Origin: Luteithermobacter gelatinilyticus
Lineage (GTDB): Bacteria; Pseudomonadota; Alphaproteobacteria; Sphingomonadales; Emcibacteraceae
Reading direction: 5' to 3'
Assembly (NCBI RefSeq): GCF_005849285.1
Contig: NZ_CP040517.1
Coordinates: 1,432,501-1,496,500, forward strand
Length of the DNA stretch: 64,000 nt
Part shown: piece after piece, positions 7,270-61,030 of the stretch
Layout: each line of letters begins with the position of its first letter
How positions within the stretch are numbered: the stretch's first letter is position 1
Made by a program: the position numbers and the translations under genes
The notes under the pieces: generated by a model
Databases searched by the model: none
What the model was told of the DNA's origin: nothing
The model's input: the letters and a program-made list of their open reading frames with translations, nothing else

Positions 7270-7854
7270 ATGAGCGAAACGGACGGCCAAGAAGAACCAA
7301 GTATGGAGGAGATCCTCGCCTCGATTCGCCGGATCATTTCCGAAGATGAAGAGGAAAGGGAGGAAAAGAAGCCTGTAGAGGAGGCCTCATCTGCCCCTGA
7401 ACCGGAACCCGAGCCGGACCCTGAACCGGAACCGGAACCCGAACCCGAGCCCGAAGAAGAAATTCTTGAGCTGACGGATATGGTTGAGGAGGAAGGGGAG
7501 GATATCGAACTGGAAATCGACGATGAACCAGAACCCGAGCCGGACCCCGAGCCTGAACCGGAACCGGAACCTGAGCCTGCTCTGGCGGGAATGGACATAG
7601 ATGACGTTGATCCGGCCGAAGGCAAGGATATTTTGATGTCCGAAGGGCCTTCTGCTGAGGCCATGGGGCAATTTCAACGGCTTTCAGCTCTGTTGACCTC
7701 AGGATATGAAGGCTCCGGTAATACGCTGGAAGACCTGGTGCGTGAATTGCTCAAGCCAATGCTGAAAAGCTGGTTGGATGAAAATCTGCCGCCCATTGTG
7801 GAGCGCATGGTCGCCAAGGAAATCGCTCGTCTGGCCCGGACCAAAAAACCGTAA
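7270..7854 (+). CDS. popZ: PopZ polar organizing protein (DUF2497 family)
   Basis: PopZ assembles a polar hub that anchors the chromosome origin through ParB and recruits cell-cycle proteins. The 194-residue protein has the three expected parts: an N-terminal recruitment helix ([21 protein letters not shown], residues 9-29), a long acidic proline-rich linker made of Pro-Glu and Pro-Asp dipeptides (about residues 39-110), and the C-terminal oligomerization helices ([20 protein letters not shown] and [16 protein letters not shown]). The linker is almost pure PE repeat in two blocks, more repetitive than I would expect. Position between tolC and valS is conserved. Confidence 0.93.
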
Positions 7855-27888: not shown

Positions 27889-27932
27889 AAAGAAGGCCCA
27901 AAGAAGGCCCAAAGAAGACCCAAAGAAGACCT
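27889..27932. repeat. Tandem 11-bp repeat, four units
   Basis: AAAGAAGGCCC twice, then AAAGAAGACCC and AAAGAAGACCT. The array runs directly into the 38-bp dyad repeat that starts at 27932. Confidence 0.85.
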
Positions 27933-27969
27933 AGAGTGAATTGTGAATAGGTTGACTCAATTCACTCTA
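27932..27969. repeat. 38-bp dyad repeat, copy 1
   Basis: Perfect 12-bp arms TAGAGTGAATTG and CAATTCACTCTA around a 14-bp loop TGAATAGGTTGACT. On the minus strand the first three bases are the TAG stop codon of the SLC13-type transporter gene. Other copies are at 34930, 49507, 55736 (half) and 60993. Confidence 0.95.
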
Positions 27970-29835
27970 AGGCAGTTGATAATACCACGGGACCATAACG
28001 GTAAAGGCCACCCATAACAGGAGAATGAGGGGGATGCCAACCTTCATGAAATCACTGAATTTATAGTTACCGGGTCCCATCACTAAAAGATTGGTTTTGT
28101 AACTCATGGGGGTGGCAAAGGAACAGTTGGCTGCGAAAATTACGGTGGTCACAAAAATCATTGGGTCAAGGTCGAGCCTGTGCCCCAGATTAATGGCAAT
28201 CGGTGTAAACAGAACAGCCGTGGCATTGTTGCTCAATACATTGGTAAAGATGGCGACGAGCAGGAAAAGTGCCGAGAGGATAACCAGAATGCTGGCGCCG
28301 GCAAAAAGATCCAGCATGCGATGCGTGAGATAGGCCGCCCCACCGGTGGCTTCCAGCGCGGCGCCCATGGCCAGGGCGGCCCCAATCAACATGAAAATCC
28401 GCCGGTCAACGGCGCGGCTGGCCTGGCGAATATTTAGACAACCGGTAAGAATCATGGCAAAGGCCCCGAGGGTGGCGGCAACGGCAATGGGCAAAATGCC
28501 GCTGGAGGCGGATGTCACGACGGCTGTAAAGATTCCCAGTGCCTTCCAGCTGTCGGTGCGTACCGGTACTTCGCTGGTGGACCATTCCATAAGCAGCACA
28601 TCGCGATTGTTGCGCAGGCGGCGAATCTGATCCCGGTTGCCGACAATCAGCAGAACATCGCCCGCTTCAAGACGGATGTCTTCGATGGAAGTGCGCACCA
28701 TGCGGGAACGACGCTGAATGCCAACAATATTGCAGCCCCCCTGAAGATAAAAACCCACCTGTTCAAGGGTGCGCCCGTCAAGCCGGGAGGCCGGGGCCAC
28801 AATGACTTCGGCAAGATGCAGGCCTTTTGCCTCTTCCTGGCTGTCGGTTGCCTGAGGGGTGCCGTCTTCGACAAATCCTCGGGAAACGGCCAGCGCGCCT
28901 TTCATCAGATTGGGGGTCTTGGCGATTTTTTCCGTAAGCACTCTGCGGGTGGTGGCGAGGATAAGGGAATCGCCTTCGCGCAGGGTAATATCATCAAAGG
29001 GCGGCAGAAAGATTTTTCGCCCCCGTTTGATCAGCCGGGTGGTCATGCCTGAAAGGTCAGGGAACATCCCGGCGACCGCACTTTTGCCAATCAGGGCATT
29101 ACCATCCACCAGATCAATCTGAACGATAAACTGTTTACCACTGGGGCGGATGGATTGTTCGGTGTTCTGATGTTTCTGGGGCAATAATTTAGGGGCAATG
29201 AACAAAACGTAGATCATGCCCACACCGGCCAGAAATAGCCCGGGAACCGTGAATTCGAAAAAGCCGATTTCCCGGCCGGTCTGTACCTTATACACCCCCG
29301 CAACCAGCAGGTTGGTGCTGGATCCGATCAGGGTGGTCATGCCGCCCAGGATGGCCACGAAACTCAGGGGCATGAGTACCAGACTGGGCGATTTATCCAT
29401 CTTGTCCATCAGCATGATGATGATGGGGATAAAAATCACCACCACCGGGGTATTGTTGAGAAACGCGCTGATGGCACTGACAGCCACAAGGCACAAAAAA
29501 ATCAGGGTCCGTGGGTAATTGACCCCATGTTTCACAAGAATCTGTGCCGGGGTCTCAAGAGCCCCTGTCTGGACGATGCCCTGTCCCATGACCAGAAGCG
29601 CCAGAACCGCAATCAGGGCCGGGTCGGCAAATCCGGATAACAGGGTTTTAGTGTTCAGAAGAAGTTGGCCATCTGCTGAGGTCAGCGGCATCACATGGAA
29701 CAGCACCAACAAGACGGAAACTACCCCTAAAGAGGTAATCTCCAACGGAATATGGTCCATGGCGTAAAACAGGATGGCGACGCCGATCACGGCAAAGGTC
29801 AACCACATATGAAGTGAAGGGGCCATATATTCCAT
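27967..29835 (-). CDS. SLC13/DASS-type permease with two RCK-C domains
   Basis: A 622-residue membrane protein of the divalent anion/sodium symporter clan. An N-terminal membrane half with FLNNTPVVVIFIPIIIMLMDK is followed by two cytosolic RCK-C (TrkA-C) domains at about residues 205-390, then a membrane half with ANCSFATPMSYKTNLLVMGPG. The NNTPVVV and NNATAVL repeats are the paired substrate/sodium motifs. The related bacterial proteins are often labelled sulfur deprivation response or potassium-uptake-like. The likely cargo is a dicarboxylate or sulfate; RCK-C domains suggest ligand gating. The stop codon lies inside the 38-bp dyad repeat. Confidence 0.9.
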   Translation of the reverse strand: MEYMAPSLHMWLTFAVIGVAILFYAMDHIPLEITSLGVVSVLLVLFHVMPLTSADGQLLLNTKTLLSGFADPALIAVLALLVMGQGIVQTGALETPAQILVKHGVNYPRTLIFLCLVAVSAISAFLNNTPVVVIFIPIIIMLMDKMDKSPSLVLMPLSFVAILGGMTTLIGSSTNLLVAGVYKVQTGREIGFFEFTVPGLFLAGVGMIYVLFIAPKLLPQKHQNTEQSIRPSGKQFIVQIDLVDGNALIGKSAVAGMFPDLSGMTTRLIKRGRKIFLPPFDDITLREGDSLILATTRRVLTEKIAKTPNLMKGALAVSRGFVEDGTPQATDSQEEAKGLHLAEVIVAPASRLDGRTLEQVGFYLQGGCNIVGIQRRSRMVRTSIEDIRLEAGDVLLIVGNRDQIRRLRNNRDVLLMEWSTSEVPVRTDSWKALGIFTAVVTSASSGILPIAVAATLGAFAMILTGCLNIRQASRAVDRRIFMLIGAALAMGAALEATGGAAYLTHRMLDLFAGASILVILSALFLLVAIFTNVLSNNATAVLFTPIAINLGHRLDLDPMIFVTTVIFAANCSFATPMSYKTNLLVMGPGNYKFSDFMKVGIPLILLLWVAFTVMVPWYYQLP

Positions 29836-33958: not shown

Positions 33959-34891
33959 ATGGAGAAACGGGCCTCCGGGAATTTCTGCAGAATGAGGCAA
34001 CAAAACAGACCTGTTTTTCTGCGTCTGATGTTTTTGATCCTGTGGGGGAGTAGCCTTGGGGCATGCAGCGTGCCGCAGCGTGATGAAGTTCGCAGTCTTG
34101 ATCCGTTTAGGCGGCAGCTGGAAACGCTGGACGGCTTTCCTTATGGATTGAGTATTCGGGATCTGGGACCGCTCAGATATGGCACTGTCCGGTTCCCACT
34201 TTGGTTCGTTGAGGATCCAGAGGCATATGATCCGCTGTTGTCGGTATTGGTGATTGGCGGTGTCGACGGACGTGATGAGTTTTCCATGGCCCTGATGCAG
34301 GAAAACCTGAACCGTCTGGCCCAGGAAAGGGAGGGGGAGCGGATACGCACCGATTATGTGCCGTTACTCAATCCTTATGGTTATGTCTATGCCAGCCATT
34401 TGACCGGCCAGGGACAGGACCTGTCCGGGGGAATACCGGAACGGTTGCCCCAGGAAATTGACCGGATTATGCCGTTGATACAGCAAAAAAAATATGATCT
34501 GGTGATCCTTCATATGGGACGCGACCATGCCGGGGGACTGGGCGTGGATCTCTGGCCGCCGCCCCGGTTATCCTCTGGCCAGGAAGGATCATCCAGCCAG
34601 GGATTATCTGGCCAGTCCCGGTTTCAGGAGCATCTGGCCGATCACATCAGTTTTACGTTGTCACGGGTGCGCGACCGCGGTTTTCCGGTTGAAAACCGGG
34701 GGCGGCAAATGACGGTGCAGGAACCGGCGCGACAGGACGCGCCTCTGCCGGCGGTATTATCCCTGCGGGCGGCGGCGCCGGTTGTGGTTCTTCACACGCC
34801 TCGCCATGAACAGATGGAAATCCGCATAGGCGCGCATCTTCTGGCCCAGAATACTCTGATCAGATTGTTCGCCAGAAACCAGCCCAACTGA
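33959..34891 (+). CDS. Putative lipoprotein with zinc-carboxypeptidase-like core
   Basis: A 310-residue protein with a lipoprotein signal ending LGAC (Cys36 if started at 33959). The core has VLVIGGVDGRDEFSMALMQENLNRLA and YVPLLNPYGYVYASH, which recall the M14 carboxypeptidase/AstE fold (IHGDEP and NPxG blocks). The zinc-binding HxxE is not present as such: the position reads VDGRDE, so the enzyme may be inactive or use another site. A serine-glycine-glutamine-rich stretch lies at about residues 203-223. It follows the FemAB-like gene by eight bases and may act in the same envelope process. Confidence 0.6.
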   Translation: MEKRASGNFCRMRQQNRPVFLRLMFLILWGSSLGACSVPQRDEVRSLDPFRRQLETLDGFPYGLSIRDLGPLRYGTVRFPLWFVEDPEAYDPLLSVLVIGGVDGRDEFSMALMQENLNRLAQEREGERIRTDYVPLLNPYGYVYASHLTGQGQDLSGGIPERLPQEIDRIMPLIQQKKYDLVILHMGRDHAGGLGVDLWPPPRLSSGQEGSSSQGLSGQSRFQEHLADHISFTLSRVRDRGFPVENRGRQMTVQEPARQDAPLPAVLSLRAAAPVVVLHTPRHEQMEIRIGAHLLAQNTLIRLFARNQPN

Positions 34892-34929: not shown

Positions 34930-34967
34930 TAGAGTGAATTGAGCCAACCTATTTGCAATTCACTCTA
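34930..34967. repeat. 38-bp dyad repeat, copy 2 (inverted)
   Basis: The same perfect 12-bp arms as copy 1 (TAGAGTGAATTG, CAATTCACTCTA), with loop AGCCAACCTATTTG, the reverse orientation of the others. It lies 38 bases after the lipoprotein stop. Confidence 0.93.
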
Positions 34968-35505: not shown

Positions 35506-35516
35506 AAATGGGGACA

Positions 35517-35597
35517 GGAAAAAATGGGGACAGTATACTATTTATAATCTTATTCACTACGTTCTCGATTAAATAGTATACTGTCCCCATTTTTTCC
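35517..35597. repeat. 28-bp perfect inverted repeat with 25-bp loop
   Basis: Arms 35517-35544 and 35570-35597 are exact reverse complements over 28 bp; the core is GGGGACAGTATACTATTTA. A truncated extra copy of the left start lies just before at 35506-35517. A third, single arm is at 36820-36843. Very similar GGGGACAGTATACTATT sequences occur around REP-associated tyrosine transposases in proteobacteria (from memory), but no transposase is here. Confidence 0.9.
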
Positions 35598-35730
35598 CGT
35601 GCTCGGGCTGATCGGCGGCGGCGATCTCGGCAATGAGCTGTTCGGCGACGGCGGCAACGGAAATGATCTTTACGCGGCCAATGACAATGGCCTGGTCAAT
35701 AGGCGTTGGCCGAGGGAGATTGCGGCATGA
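35598..35730 (+). pseudogene. RTX-like repeat remnant
   Basis: In one frame this reads GLIGGGDLGNELFGDGGNG followed by NDLYAANDNGLV, a degenerate glycine- and aspartate-rich calcium-binding (RTX-type) pattern, and ends at TGA 35730. It has no start and is cut at its left end by the inverted repeat. It probably comes from the C-terminal part of a secreted repeat protein. Confidence 0.4.
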
Positions 35731-47964: not shown

Positions 47965-48422
47965 TGACGGAAAAAGCCATGAAAGGCGGCGGGGCCAGAA
48001 GTGCCGCGCGGCTCGGCGCGGTTCAGGCCCTTTACCAGATGGAAGTCAACGGGGAGACCGCCGGCGAGGTGGTGCCGGAATTTCTCAAATACCGTCTGGG
48101 CACCGAAATTGAGGGTGATTTGTATAACGAAGCCGATCAGGAACTTTTTACGGACCTGACCAAGGGGGTAGAGCTTCGTTTGGAGGAAATTGACGCGCTG
48201 GTGGCTTCGGCGTTGAGTGATGACTGGACTCTGGACAGGATCGAGTCTGTGGCGCGGGCCATTCTGCGGGCCGGTACTTATGAACTTCTGGCCCGTCCAG
48301 ATATCCCCACCAAAGTCATCATTAATGAATATGTGGATCTGGCGAAGGCTTTTTTTGAGGACAGCAAGCCCGGCTTTGTCAATGGCGTATTGGACAAGCT
48401 GGCGCGGATTACCCGAAGCTGA
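47964..48422 (+). CDS. nusB: Transcription antitermination factor NusB
   Basis: A 152-residue all-helical protein that binds boxA RNA with NusE in rRNA antitermination. Helices follow the family pattern: SAARLGAVQALYQMEVNG, EIDALVASALSDDWTLDRIE, ARAILRAGTYELLARPDIPT, and KVIINEYVDLAKAFFEDSKPGFVNGVLDKL. ribH-nusB-thiL is the standard alphaproteobacterial order. Confidence 0.96.
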   Translation: MTEKAMKGGGARSAARLGAVQALYQMEVNGETAGEVVPEFLKYRLGTEIEGDLYNEADQELFTDLTKGVELRLEEIDALVASALSDDWTLDRIESVARAILRAGTYELLARPDIPTKVIINEYVDLAKAFFEDSKPGFVNGVLDKLARITRS

Positions 48423-48513
48423 ACCCGCGACAGCACCTTGCGAAAGGGGCCGACAAGAGCCACCAGTAAAGAAGACCCCCAGCACAGGAAAGCTCTCAGA
48501 ACAGGAGAGACCT

Positions 48514-49509
48514 ATGAGTTCCGGCGAATTCGATCTCATTTACCGGTATTTTGCTCCTTTGGCCGGGGAGGGGGCCCCTGCCTTCGGGCTTCAGGATGAT
48601 GCTGCGGTTTTCCAAACGGAACCGGGACAGGAATTGGTATTGACCAAGGATGCGCTTGTCTGTTCTGTACATTTTCTGGAGACCGACGCGCCGGATATGT
48701 TGGCCCGCAAGGCGTTGCGGGTTAATCTTTCGGATCTGGCCGGCATGGGAGCTGATGCCAAAGGGTATCTTCTGGCCCTGGCGCTGCCGCAAAAGATGAC
48801 GGCGGAACAGCGTCGGAACTGGGTGGCGGCTTTTACCAAAGGGCTGGCGCAGGACCAGCAGGAATTTTCCCTGACCCTTCTGGGGGGAGATACGGTGTCC
48901 ACCCCAGGACCCCTGACCATCTCGCTGACGGCTCTGGGTACGGTGCCAAAGGGCAGGGCGCTGCACCGTTTCGGGGCCCGGGCAGGGGATGTGATCTATG
49001 TTTCTGGCACGCTGGGGGATAGTGCCATCGGGCTGGCCCTGCGACAGGGAACGCTGGAAGAACCGGACGTCAAATGCCGGGATTTCCTTGTCGATCGTTA
49101 CCTTTTGCCGCAACCGCGTCTTGCGCTTGGACGGGCCCTTCGGGACCTGGCCAGCGCAGCCATGGACATTTCCGACGGATTGATTGCTGATCTGCGGCAT
49201 ATCTGCGAGGCCTCAGGTCTGGGGGCTCGTATTTTTGAATCTGATCTGCCATTCTCCCCGGCGGCGGGTAAGGTTTTTGAAAGATTCCCCGCATATAACA
49301 AAAAAGTATGGCAGGGGGGGGATGACTATGAAATGTTGTTCACCGTGCCGGAAAACCGGGAAAAGGAGGTTACGGCTCTTTCCCAGGAACTGGGACTCTC
49401 CTTGACCAGAATTGGACAAATGACGCAAAGCAGGGAACTGCATCTGCTGGATCAGGATCATCGTGATGTGTTACAGACAGGCGAGACGGAAGGTTTTAGC
49501 CACTTCTAG
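48514..49509 (+). CDS. thiL: Thiamine-monophosphate kinase
   Basis: ThiL phosphorylates thiamine phosphate to thiamine diphosphate. The 331-residue protein starts at ATG 48514 with AGGAG nearby, and has MSSGEFDLIYRYFAPL, GLQDDAAVF, VLTKDALVCSVHFL, and the DISDGLIADLRHI motif. A longer reading from upstream would overlap nusB and is not supported. The TAG stop is the first three bases of a 38-bp dyad repeat copy. Confidence 0.95.
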   Translation: MSSGEFDLIYRYFAPLAGEGAPAFGLQDDAAVFQTEPGQELVLTKDALVCSVHFLETDAPDMLARKALRVNLSDLAGMGADAKGYLLALALPQKMTAEQRRNWVAAFTKGLAQDQQEFSLTLLGGDTVSTPGPLTISLTALGTVPKGRALHRFGARAGDVIYVSGTLGDSAIGLALRQGTLEEPDVKCRDFLVDRYLLPQPRLALGRALRDLASAAMDISDGLIADLRHICEASGLGARIFESDLPFSPAAGKVFERFPAYNKKVWQGGDDYEMLFTVPENREKEVTALSQELGLSLTRIGQMTQSRELHLLDQDHRDVLQTGETEGFSHF

Positions 49510-49544
49510 ATTGAGTTGTGGATAGATTGTCTTAATTCACTCTA
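49507..49544. repeat. 38-bp dyad repeat, copy 3 (diverged)
   Basis: Arms TAGATTGAGTTG and TAATTCACTCTA around TGGATAGATTGTCT. Length is exactly 38 bp as in the other copies, but several positions have drifted. Its TAG is the thiL stop codon. Confidence 0.85.
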
Positions 49545-55735: not shown

Positions 55736-55761
55736 TAGAGTGAATTGTGAATAGGTTGACC
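55736..55761. repeat. 38-bp dyad repeat, copy 4 (left half only)
   Basis: TAGAGTGAATTG and the loop TGAATAGGTTGACC are present; the right arm is lost (only CATTC remains). It is the copy most like copy 1 in its left half. Confidence 0.85.
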
Positions 55762-55815
55762 CATTCTGCCGGTCAGGTCTGGCCCAGTCCCTGCGGGGGG
55801 GGGGCTGGCCGTACC

Positions 55816-59645: not shown

Positions 59646-59762
59646 AATTATAAAATAACGCAATAATATTCGAAAAATCAACACAGATGTCATCTAATTT
59701 GCAAGGACATTCGGCCCATCTTCAGATATTCTGTCAGACAGGTGAAAAATAGGAGCTTCAGA

Positions 59763-60869
59763 ATGATTGTCGGTGTGCCAAAGGAAATCAAAAACCATGA
59801 ATATCGCGTTGGTCTGACCCCGGCCAGCGCTTCAGAATTTGTCAGGAACGGTCACAAAGTGGTGGTGGAAACCCGTGCAGGTGAAGGGGTCGGCTTTACG
59901 GACGAGGATTACCGGGCAGTAGGGGCGGAAATTCTCTCAACGCCGGAAGAAATTTTCGAGCAGGCGGAAATGATCGTCAAGGTCAAAGAACCCCAGCTTA
60001 ATGAATGCGCCATGCTGAAAGAGCACCATGTGCTCTATACCTATCTGCATCTGGCGCCAGATCCGGCCCAGACCGATGCGCTACTCAAATCGGGATGTAC
60101 GGCCATTGCCTATGAAACCGTCACCAATGATGCAGGCGGTTTGCCGCTGCTGGCGCCGATGAGTGAAGTCGCTGGCAGAATGTCCATTCAGGCTGGCGCG
60201 CATGCGCTGGAAAAAGCGTCTGGTGGGCGGGGTCTATTGTTGGGTGGTGTACCCGGCGTGGCGCCGGCCAAGGTAGTGATTATCGGGGGCGGCGTGTCTG
60301 GGATGAACGCCGCAGAAATGGCTGTTGGCCTCGGGGCGGATGTAAGTGTTTTTGACCGTAATCCGGATGTGTTGCGGCGGTTGGACAGCCGATTCCGTGG
60401 CAGTGTCAAAACCCGTTATTCCACGGGTCATGACCTGGAAGAGGCCGTGCTTGGCGCGGATCTCGTGATCGGGGCGGTGCTGGTGGCGGGGGCGGCTGCA
60501 CCGAAACTGGTCAGCCGGGATATGGTTAGCCAGATGAAGGATGGGGCGGTGCTGGTGGATATTTCCATCGACCAGGGCGGTTGTTTCGAGACCTCCCATC
60601 CGACCACTCATGCCGATCCCACCTTTATTGTGGATGGTATAGTCCATTATTGTGTGGCCAACATGCCGGGTGCTGTGGCACGGACCTCAACCTTTGCCCT
60701 GAATAATGCGACCCTTCCTTTTGGTCTGGCTCTGGCTAACAAGGGCTGGAAACAGGCATGTAAGGATGATCCGCATCTGAAAAACGGTGTTAATGTGTCT
60801 GGCGGGTTTGTGACTTATGAAGCCGTTGCTCGCGACTTGGGCAAGGAATATCGTCCGCTGGATCTGTAA
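59763..60869 (+). CDS. ald: Alanine dehydrogenase
   Basis: A 368-residue enzyme that converts alanine to pyruvate with NAD. The start ATG 59763 has AGGAGC six bases upstream and gives [20 protein letters not shown]. The active-site Lys75 (VKVKEP) and His96 (LYTYLHL) are at their exact family positions, and the NAD site is [15 protein letters not shown]. Its expression probably depends on the divergent Lrp protein. Confidence 0.96.
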
Positions 60870-60992: not shown

Positions 60993-61030
60993 TAGAGTGA
61001 ATTGCGATCAGGTTGGCCCAATTCACTCTA
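60993..61030. repeat. 38-bp dyad repeat, copy 5
   Basis: Perfect 12-bp arms TAGAGTGAATTG and CAATTCACTCTA around CGATCAGGTTGGCC. It stands between the ald terminator and the malic enzyme gene. Confidence 0.93.

Follow-up and report, generated by a model that had tools for sequence, protein, structure and literature searches.

A 38-bp dyad repeat of Luteithermobacter gelatinilyticus, probably the shortest class of an IS630-derived MITE family

A short dyad at the ends of genes

What is a dyad of only 38 bp that turns up five times in 64 kb, mostly just after genes, and how did it come to be there? The window, i.e., the whole stretch of DNA that was analysed, is 64,000 nucleotides long and is C1:1432501-1496500 of the single-contig genome of 3,145,891 bp (3.15 Mb). 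A preliminary description of it proposed a dispersed family of dyads with 12-bp arms and placed copies at 27932, 34930, 49507, 55736 and 60993, and all five sites are to be found there. The arms that it took to be common to the copies are perfect at three of them. The first, at 27932..27969 on the + strand, ends in CTA, which reads TAG on the opposite strand and is the stop codon of a CitMHS transporter gene at 27967-29835(-). The second, at 34930..34967 on the - strand and 38 bp 3′ of the ORF 33959-34891(+), holds the reverse complement of the loop, which bears out that both orientations occur. The third, at 60993..61030(+), lies 123 bp 3′ of the alanine dehydrogenase gene 59742-60869(+). The dyad at 49507..49544(+) is decayed, with three arm mismatches; it opens with TAG, which serves as stop codon to an AIR-synthase-like gene at 48217-49509(+). 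What had been regarded as a dyad that lost one arm, at 55736..55782(+), is no such thing: its 47 bp, with a single arm, are one terminus of a longer MITE, of ~270 bp when complete and truncated here, and are 97.9% identical to the corresponding end. That copies differ in how far they have decayed is borne out. Similarly, that all are intergenic is correct only in part, as the terminal TAG or CTA of two copies (27932 and 49507) is a neighbour's stop codon.

Arm matches in the window with no more than two mismatches number 10, compared with a mean of 3.9 and a largest count of 8 in 100 shuffles. A short tandem array of AAAGAAGGCCC / AAAGAAGACCC units, at window 27890-27931, abuts the dyad at 27932, and CCGGAACCCGAG-type repeats at window 7362-7589 lie within an ORF, in a Pro-Glu-rich stretch. 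As to a known RNA family, Rfam matches within the window are tRNAs only.

Distribution in this and other genomes

Is the family limited to the five window copies? The whole genome has 124 dyads, defined by two 12-bp arms with 14 bp between them and no more than three arm mismatches, and a reversed-pattern control gives 0, so that it clearly is not; no dyad is present in 59 other genomes from the family and order to which this one belongs, a set with no same-genus genome in it. With exact 10-bp arms there is no dyad family in 84,980 other GTDB species genomes, bar one match in Staphylococcus pasteuri, and there is nothing in an IMG/VR scan. In Staphylococcus pasteuri the two strands match at one and the same position, which is inevitable for an exact symmetric pattern, and the match is taken as a chance palindrome rather than as a shared family; a phage-borne family is rejected, the IMG/VR scan being empty.

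The statistics that follow are from a sample of 100 evenly spaced 20-kb stretches (2.0 Mb, 64% of the genome), with genes called by a home-made hexamer score instead of a standard gene finder. Dyads in the sample have sharp borders and flanks that are unrelated to one another. Their numbers per tenth of the chromosome are 10, 11, 6, 7, 16, 5, 4, 7, 4 and 10, and the richest tenth, with 16, holds the window together with the GC-skew maximum at 1.54 Mb, the probable terminus.

Ends held in common with an IS630-family element

Many apparent half copies in the sample run on into either of two conserved sequences, which are the ends of longer elements of ~270-296 bp. Their core is GC-rich, they lack a long open frame and, like the dyad, they have a terminal inverted repeat of ~23 bp, TAGAGTGAATTGTGAA(T/G)AGGTTG. 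This repeat also lies at the two ends of a 1058-bp insertion sequence, present in two copies that are 98.8% identical and have different flanks. Over its first 23 bases the left end of this insertion sequence, TAGAGTGAATTGTGAAAAGGTTGG, matches the dyad end at 22, and its right end, TAGAGTCTTTTGTTAATAGGTTT, is more diverged from the MITE ends than the left one is. The insertion sequence codes, in two frames that overlap at AAAAAAAA, for an IS630-family transposase (PF13358, E 7e-37 and 1e-36; NCBIfam transpos_IS630, E 1e-45) with, by inspection, a DD34E-like spacing of acidic residues. There is an A8 run at the frame overlap in both IS630 copies (L133 and L134, ~1405-1415), which fits programmed frameshifting.

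Do related elements have similar dependents elsewhere? A genome from another family of the order contains a homologous IS630 (84% aa) and, alongside it, ~160-266-bp MITEs of its own, whose ends resemble the ends of that IS and whose core is weakly similar to the 270-bp core here. Another genome of the order has an IS630 relative with six transposase copies, and there four end matches were found and no sign of MITEs.

The copies fall into sharp length classes of 37 bp (n=5), 38 bp (n=75), 44 bp (n=9) and ~270 bp, with none for the reversed control. Near-full-length long forms number 10 in the sample, and intermediate deletions of 143, 177 and 205 bp are also present. The 38-mer consists of the first 32 nt of the long-form left end (...GGTTGGCT-CAATTC) followed by ACTCTA, and ACTCTA is what comes after CAATTC at the other terminus of the long form; of the ~23-bp repeat, the 38-mer has the whole at one end and 12 bp at the other. 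In our own junction alignment the 44-mer and three of the five 37-mers (...GACCCATTCACTCTA) are fusions at ATTC. To judge from these sequences, deletion within the 270-bp element, with CAATTC or ATTC as the microhomology at the junction, would account for the 38-, 44- and 37-bp forms.

A second composite repeat, of ~170 bp and with CTAG-type borders (CTAGTGTGGTGAATTTGAAG ... CAGAGTCAGAAGACTAG), has eight copies in the sample, at C1:577961, 586064, 452932, 1179490, 2312979, 2896123, 2911665 and 3051978 (L051, L047, L070, L086, L105, L110). In 5/8 its right border adjoins a dyad, a long-form end or a partial end, in constant orientation.

TA targets and an empty site

Tc1/mariner/IS630 elements show strict TA integration (PMC5481204). 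The borders of the dyads are Y-TA ... TA-R in 71/80, and the corresponding proportion for non-coding TA sites is 18.5%. Adjacent copies at 2903844/2903880, and again at 2426336/2426372, have one TA in common, which fits TA as the target that an element of that type duplicates. At C1:224158, 1394273, 1998540, 2141680, 2426372 and 2993685 the left border is CA and not TA, mostly in copies of an ATGAG-like loop type, and these count against the derivation of the dyads from IS630 MITEs, since a fresh TA duplication would not give CA.

Can a site be seen as it was before a dyad arrived? Within this genome, a search with the flanks of copies joined together brought up composite repeats alone. The distance from the AIR-synthase-like stop codon at the 49507 locus to the next ATG is 74 bp, i.e., 38 plus the expected 36. 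Among the orthologues from the family that could be read to their end, finishing at the corresponding ...HF* residue, the next ATG follows after 15-39 bp and no dyad is present. The orthologous site is empty in relatives and the lengths differ by 36 bp, though the relatives are too diverged for the empty site to be base-exact. Beside 27932, the CitMHS gene ends within one or two residues of where its orthologues end.

The dyads, then, are short, non-coding and multi-copy (38 bp, 124 copies, with 270-bp forms lacking a long open frame), have a terminal inverted repeat in common with an IS630-family element, closely at the left end and less so at the right, and duplicate a TA target on insertion, as the Y-TA-R flanks, the common TA of adjacent copies and the orthologous empty site attest. 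We have little doubt that they belong to an IS630-derived MITE family, as its shortest class. As an explanation of the whole, we think it likely that an IS630 element has been reduced nearly to its terminal inverted repeats. The 38-mer would be 34 bp of element between two TA target duplicates, with the 34 bp made up of ~25 bp of one end joined to the outermost ~10 bp of the other. The transposase, probably produced by frameshifting at the A8 run, would act in trans, inserting the short forms at Y-TA-R sites, and copies in genes and promoters would be purged. Such purging would leave survivors 3′ of genes and at stop codons of the TAR type, where the protein is unchanged because the element supplies its own TAG. 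It is a natural case in which a TA target and a TAG end allow a stop codon to be occupied with the protein unaltered.

A unit that moves, or scars of a longer one?

Did the 38-bp form multiply, or was it made afresh at each place? In the latter event a 270-bp MITE would have inserted at each site and been deleted later between its CAATTC direct repeats, and the 38-bp form would never have moved. The nearly precise excision of Tn10 offers a comparison. That the 38-mer is the exact product of a deletion across a 6-bp repeat of the 270-bp form is in keeping with this, as is the existence of the intermediate deletions; deletions at this microhomology could happen repeatedly in place, and a 38-mer with an incomplete end, having the full repeat at one end only, may be a poor substrate for the transposase. 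However, dyads and full-length 270-bp forms stand at ~80 to 10 in the sample, and the loops of the two differ. Position 17 is G in 11/80 dyads vs 20/42 long-form ends (p=1e-4), position 24 is A in 23/80 dyads vs 2/20 strictly defined left ends, and a loop subgroup with ATGAG, comprising five dyads, has no member among those 20 left ends. Furthermore, two identical 38-mers with eight derived changes are present at unrelated loci and have no long counterpart. In the other MITE-bearing genome there are no short forms among the matches listed, though its ends do not have the same repeat. Deletion in place at every site is accordingly a doubtful account of the short forms, and multiplication of the 38-bp form as its own unit is, in our judgement, the somewhat better founded proposal. 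On whether the 34-bp segment, two fused IS630 ends of which one is only ~12 bp, is the transposing unit and has given >120 copies, our opinion is evenly divided. A transposing segment of this size would rank with the shortest mobile elements in nature, and would be a test of how an IS630 transposase can bring two ends together on so little DNA.

Why after genes?

No dyad of the 80 in the sample is inside a called gene. For 79 there is a neighbouring gene on either side, and of these 37 occupy convergent gaps, vs 17% expected from permissible YTAR sites (p=1e-9), and six divergent gaps, vs 27% expected (p=2e-5). The enrichment at gene 3′ ends that the preliminary description anticipated is strong, 54/79 being no more than 30 bp from a gene end vs 28% expected (p=2e-13), and the picture of a dispersed, lineage-specific dyad family concentrated after genes holds good. 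In 26/79 the dyad's own first bases are the TAG stop of the gene, vs 15% expected (p=1e-4), and 12 further gene ends fall inside a dyad in other frames.

Could these positions instead reflect what the dyads do in RNA? Selection for bidirectional transcription termination, or for stabilisation of mRNA 3′ ends, might have driven their spread, and for this there are the excesses just given in convergent gaps and close to gene ends, along with a predicted hairpin of -13 to -14 kcal/mol (z -4 to -6); that predicted for the 44-mer is -25 kcal/mol. However, an intrinsic terminator needs a T-run after its hairpin, and at least five T in the next 8 nt are found in only 2/160 flanks, so that possibility is rejected; also, compensatory double changes, at 4 vs 2.3 expected, do not make a convincing case for selection on RNA structure. 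In addition, the same bias of position in RUP, SPRITE and IS elements is read, in the portions of PMC3049150 that deal with them, as weak purifying selection after genes. It is very unlikely that such a function drove the spread, and co-option as a 3′-end element at some loci is possible.

Scarcely credible is mobilisation by a RAYT of what would be a REP family, a stand-alone family of palindromes for which the preliminary description had suggested a search for a RAYT or other transposase, since, though the palindromes are short, of high copy, extragenic and after genes and the genome has one Y1_Tnp gene, that sole gene is flanked by ATACTGTCCCC inverted repeats and not by dyads, neither end has an unpaired GTAG or CGTC tag (TAG is paired, the flank base is C or T in 151/160 ends and the base before TAG is G in only 2/160), and the dyad's end is carried by an IS630 element. 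The inverted repeat GGGGACAGTATACTATTT ... AAATAGTATACTGTCCCC flanking the Y1_Tnp (RAYT-like) gene (L031, ~1345-1423 and 2130-2185) also has a copy in the window at 35514-35600, and is a REP-like family of its own. Beside isolated dyad ends at C1:1105594 (L068) and C1:2172717 (L082) is CGTCATGGCGAG, which looks like the CGTC-type REPs described in Alphaproteobacteria.

Comparison with known systems

At 38 bp the dyads are, to our knowledge, unusually short among bacterial MITEs, for which PMC2229807 gives a range of 100-200 bp. In one genome there is a complete size series, from a 1058-bp IS through a 270-bp MITE to end-to-end fusions of 44, 38 and 37 bp, in which the deletion junctions are directly readable, and it provides a route by which REP-like palindromes could arise without a RAYT.

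The GTAG and CGTC families of REP/BIME are likewise palindromes, of 20-40 bp, high in copy and found after genes and between convergent genes, but the dyads have no GTAG or CGTC tag, no link to RAYT, and ends and targets of IS630 type (PMC3733652). QMITE1 and QMITE2 of Coxiella burnetii, like the dyads, are MITEs whose copies overlap the 3′ ends of genes and provide stop codons; in contrast, they are 150-400 bp long with variable target duplications of 2-3 or 7-11 nt (PMC5896051). The Correia/NEMIS elements of Neisseria, of ~107 and 155 bp in the section of PMC2229807 on them, are depicted there with a 24-bp TIR, TA termini, two size classes arising by internal deletion or insertion, and hairpin transcripts, all of which recall the present family. 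However, by that description they are about three times longer and from a different host, and the exact-arm search disclosed no such family in the genomes of other species.

Closest is RUP of Streptococcus pneumoniae, a 107-bp repeat for which mobilisation by IS630-Spn1 has been proposed (relevant sections of PMC2229807 and PMC3049150). As described there, it too has IS630-like ends, a TA target, ~110 intergenic copies, an excess between convergent genes and a transposase available only in trans. At 38 vs 107 bp, in an unrelated host and confined to this genome in the searches made, the dyads are not members of the pneumococcal repeat, and the RUP descriptions in those sections are without a size series of end-to-end fusions. 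On the features tested, the dyads belong with IS630-derived MITEs such as RUP, and differ from them in their extreme shortness and in the size series that has been preserved alongside them.
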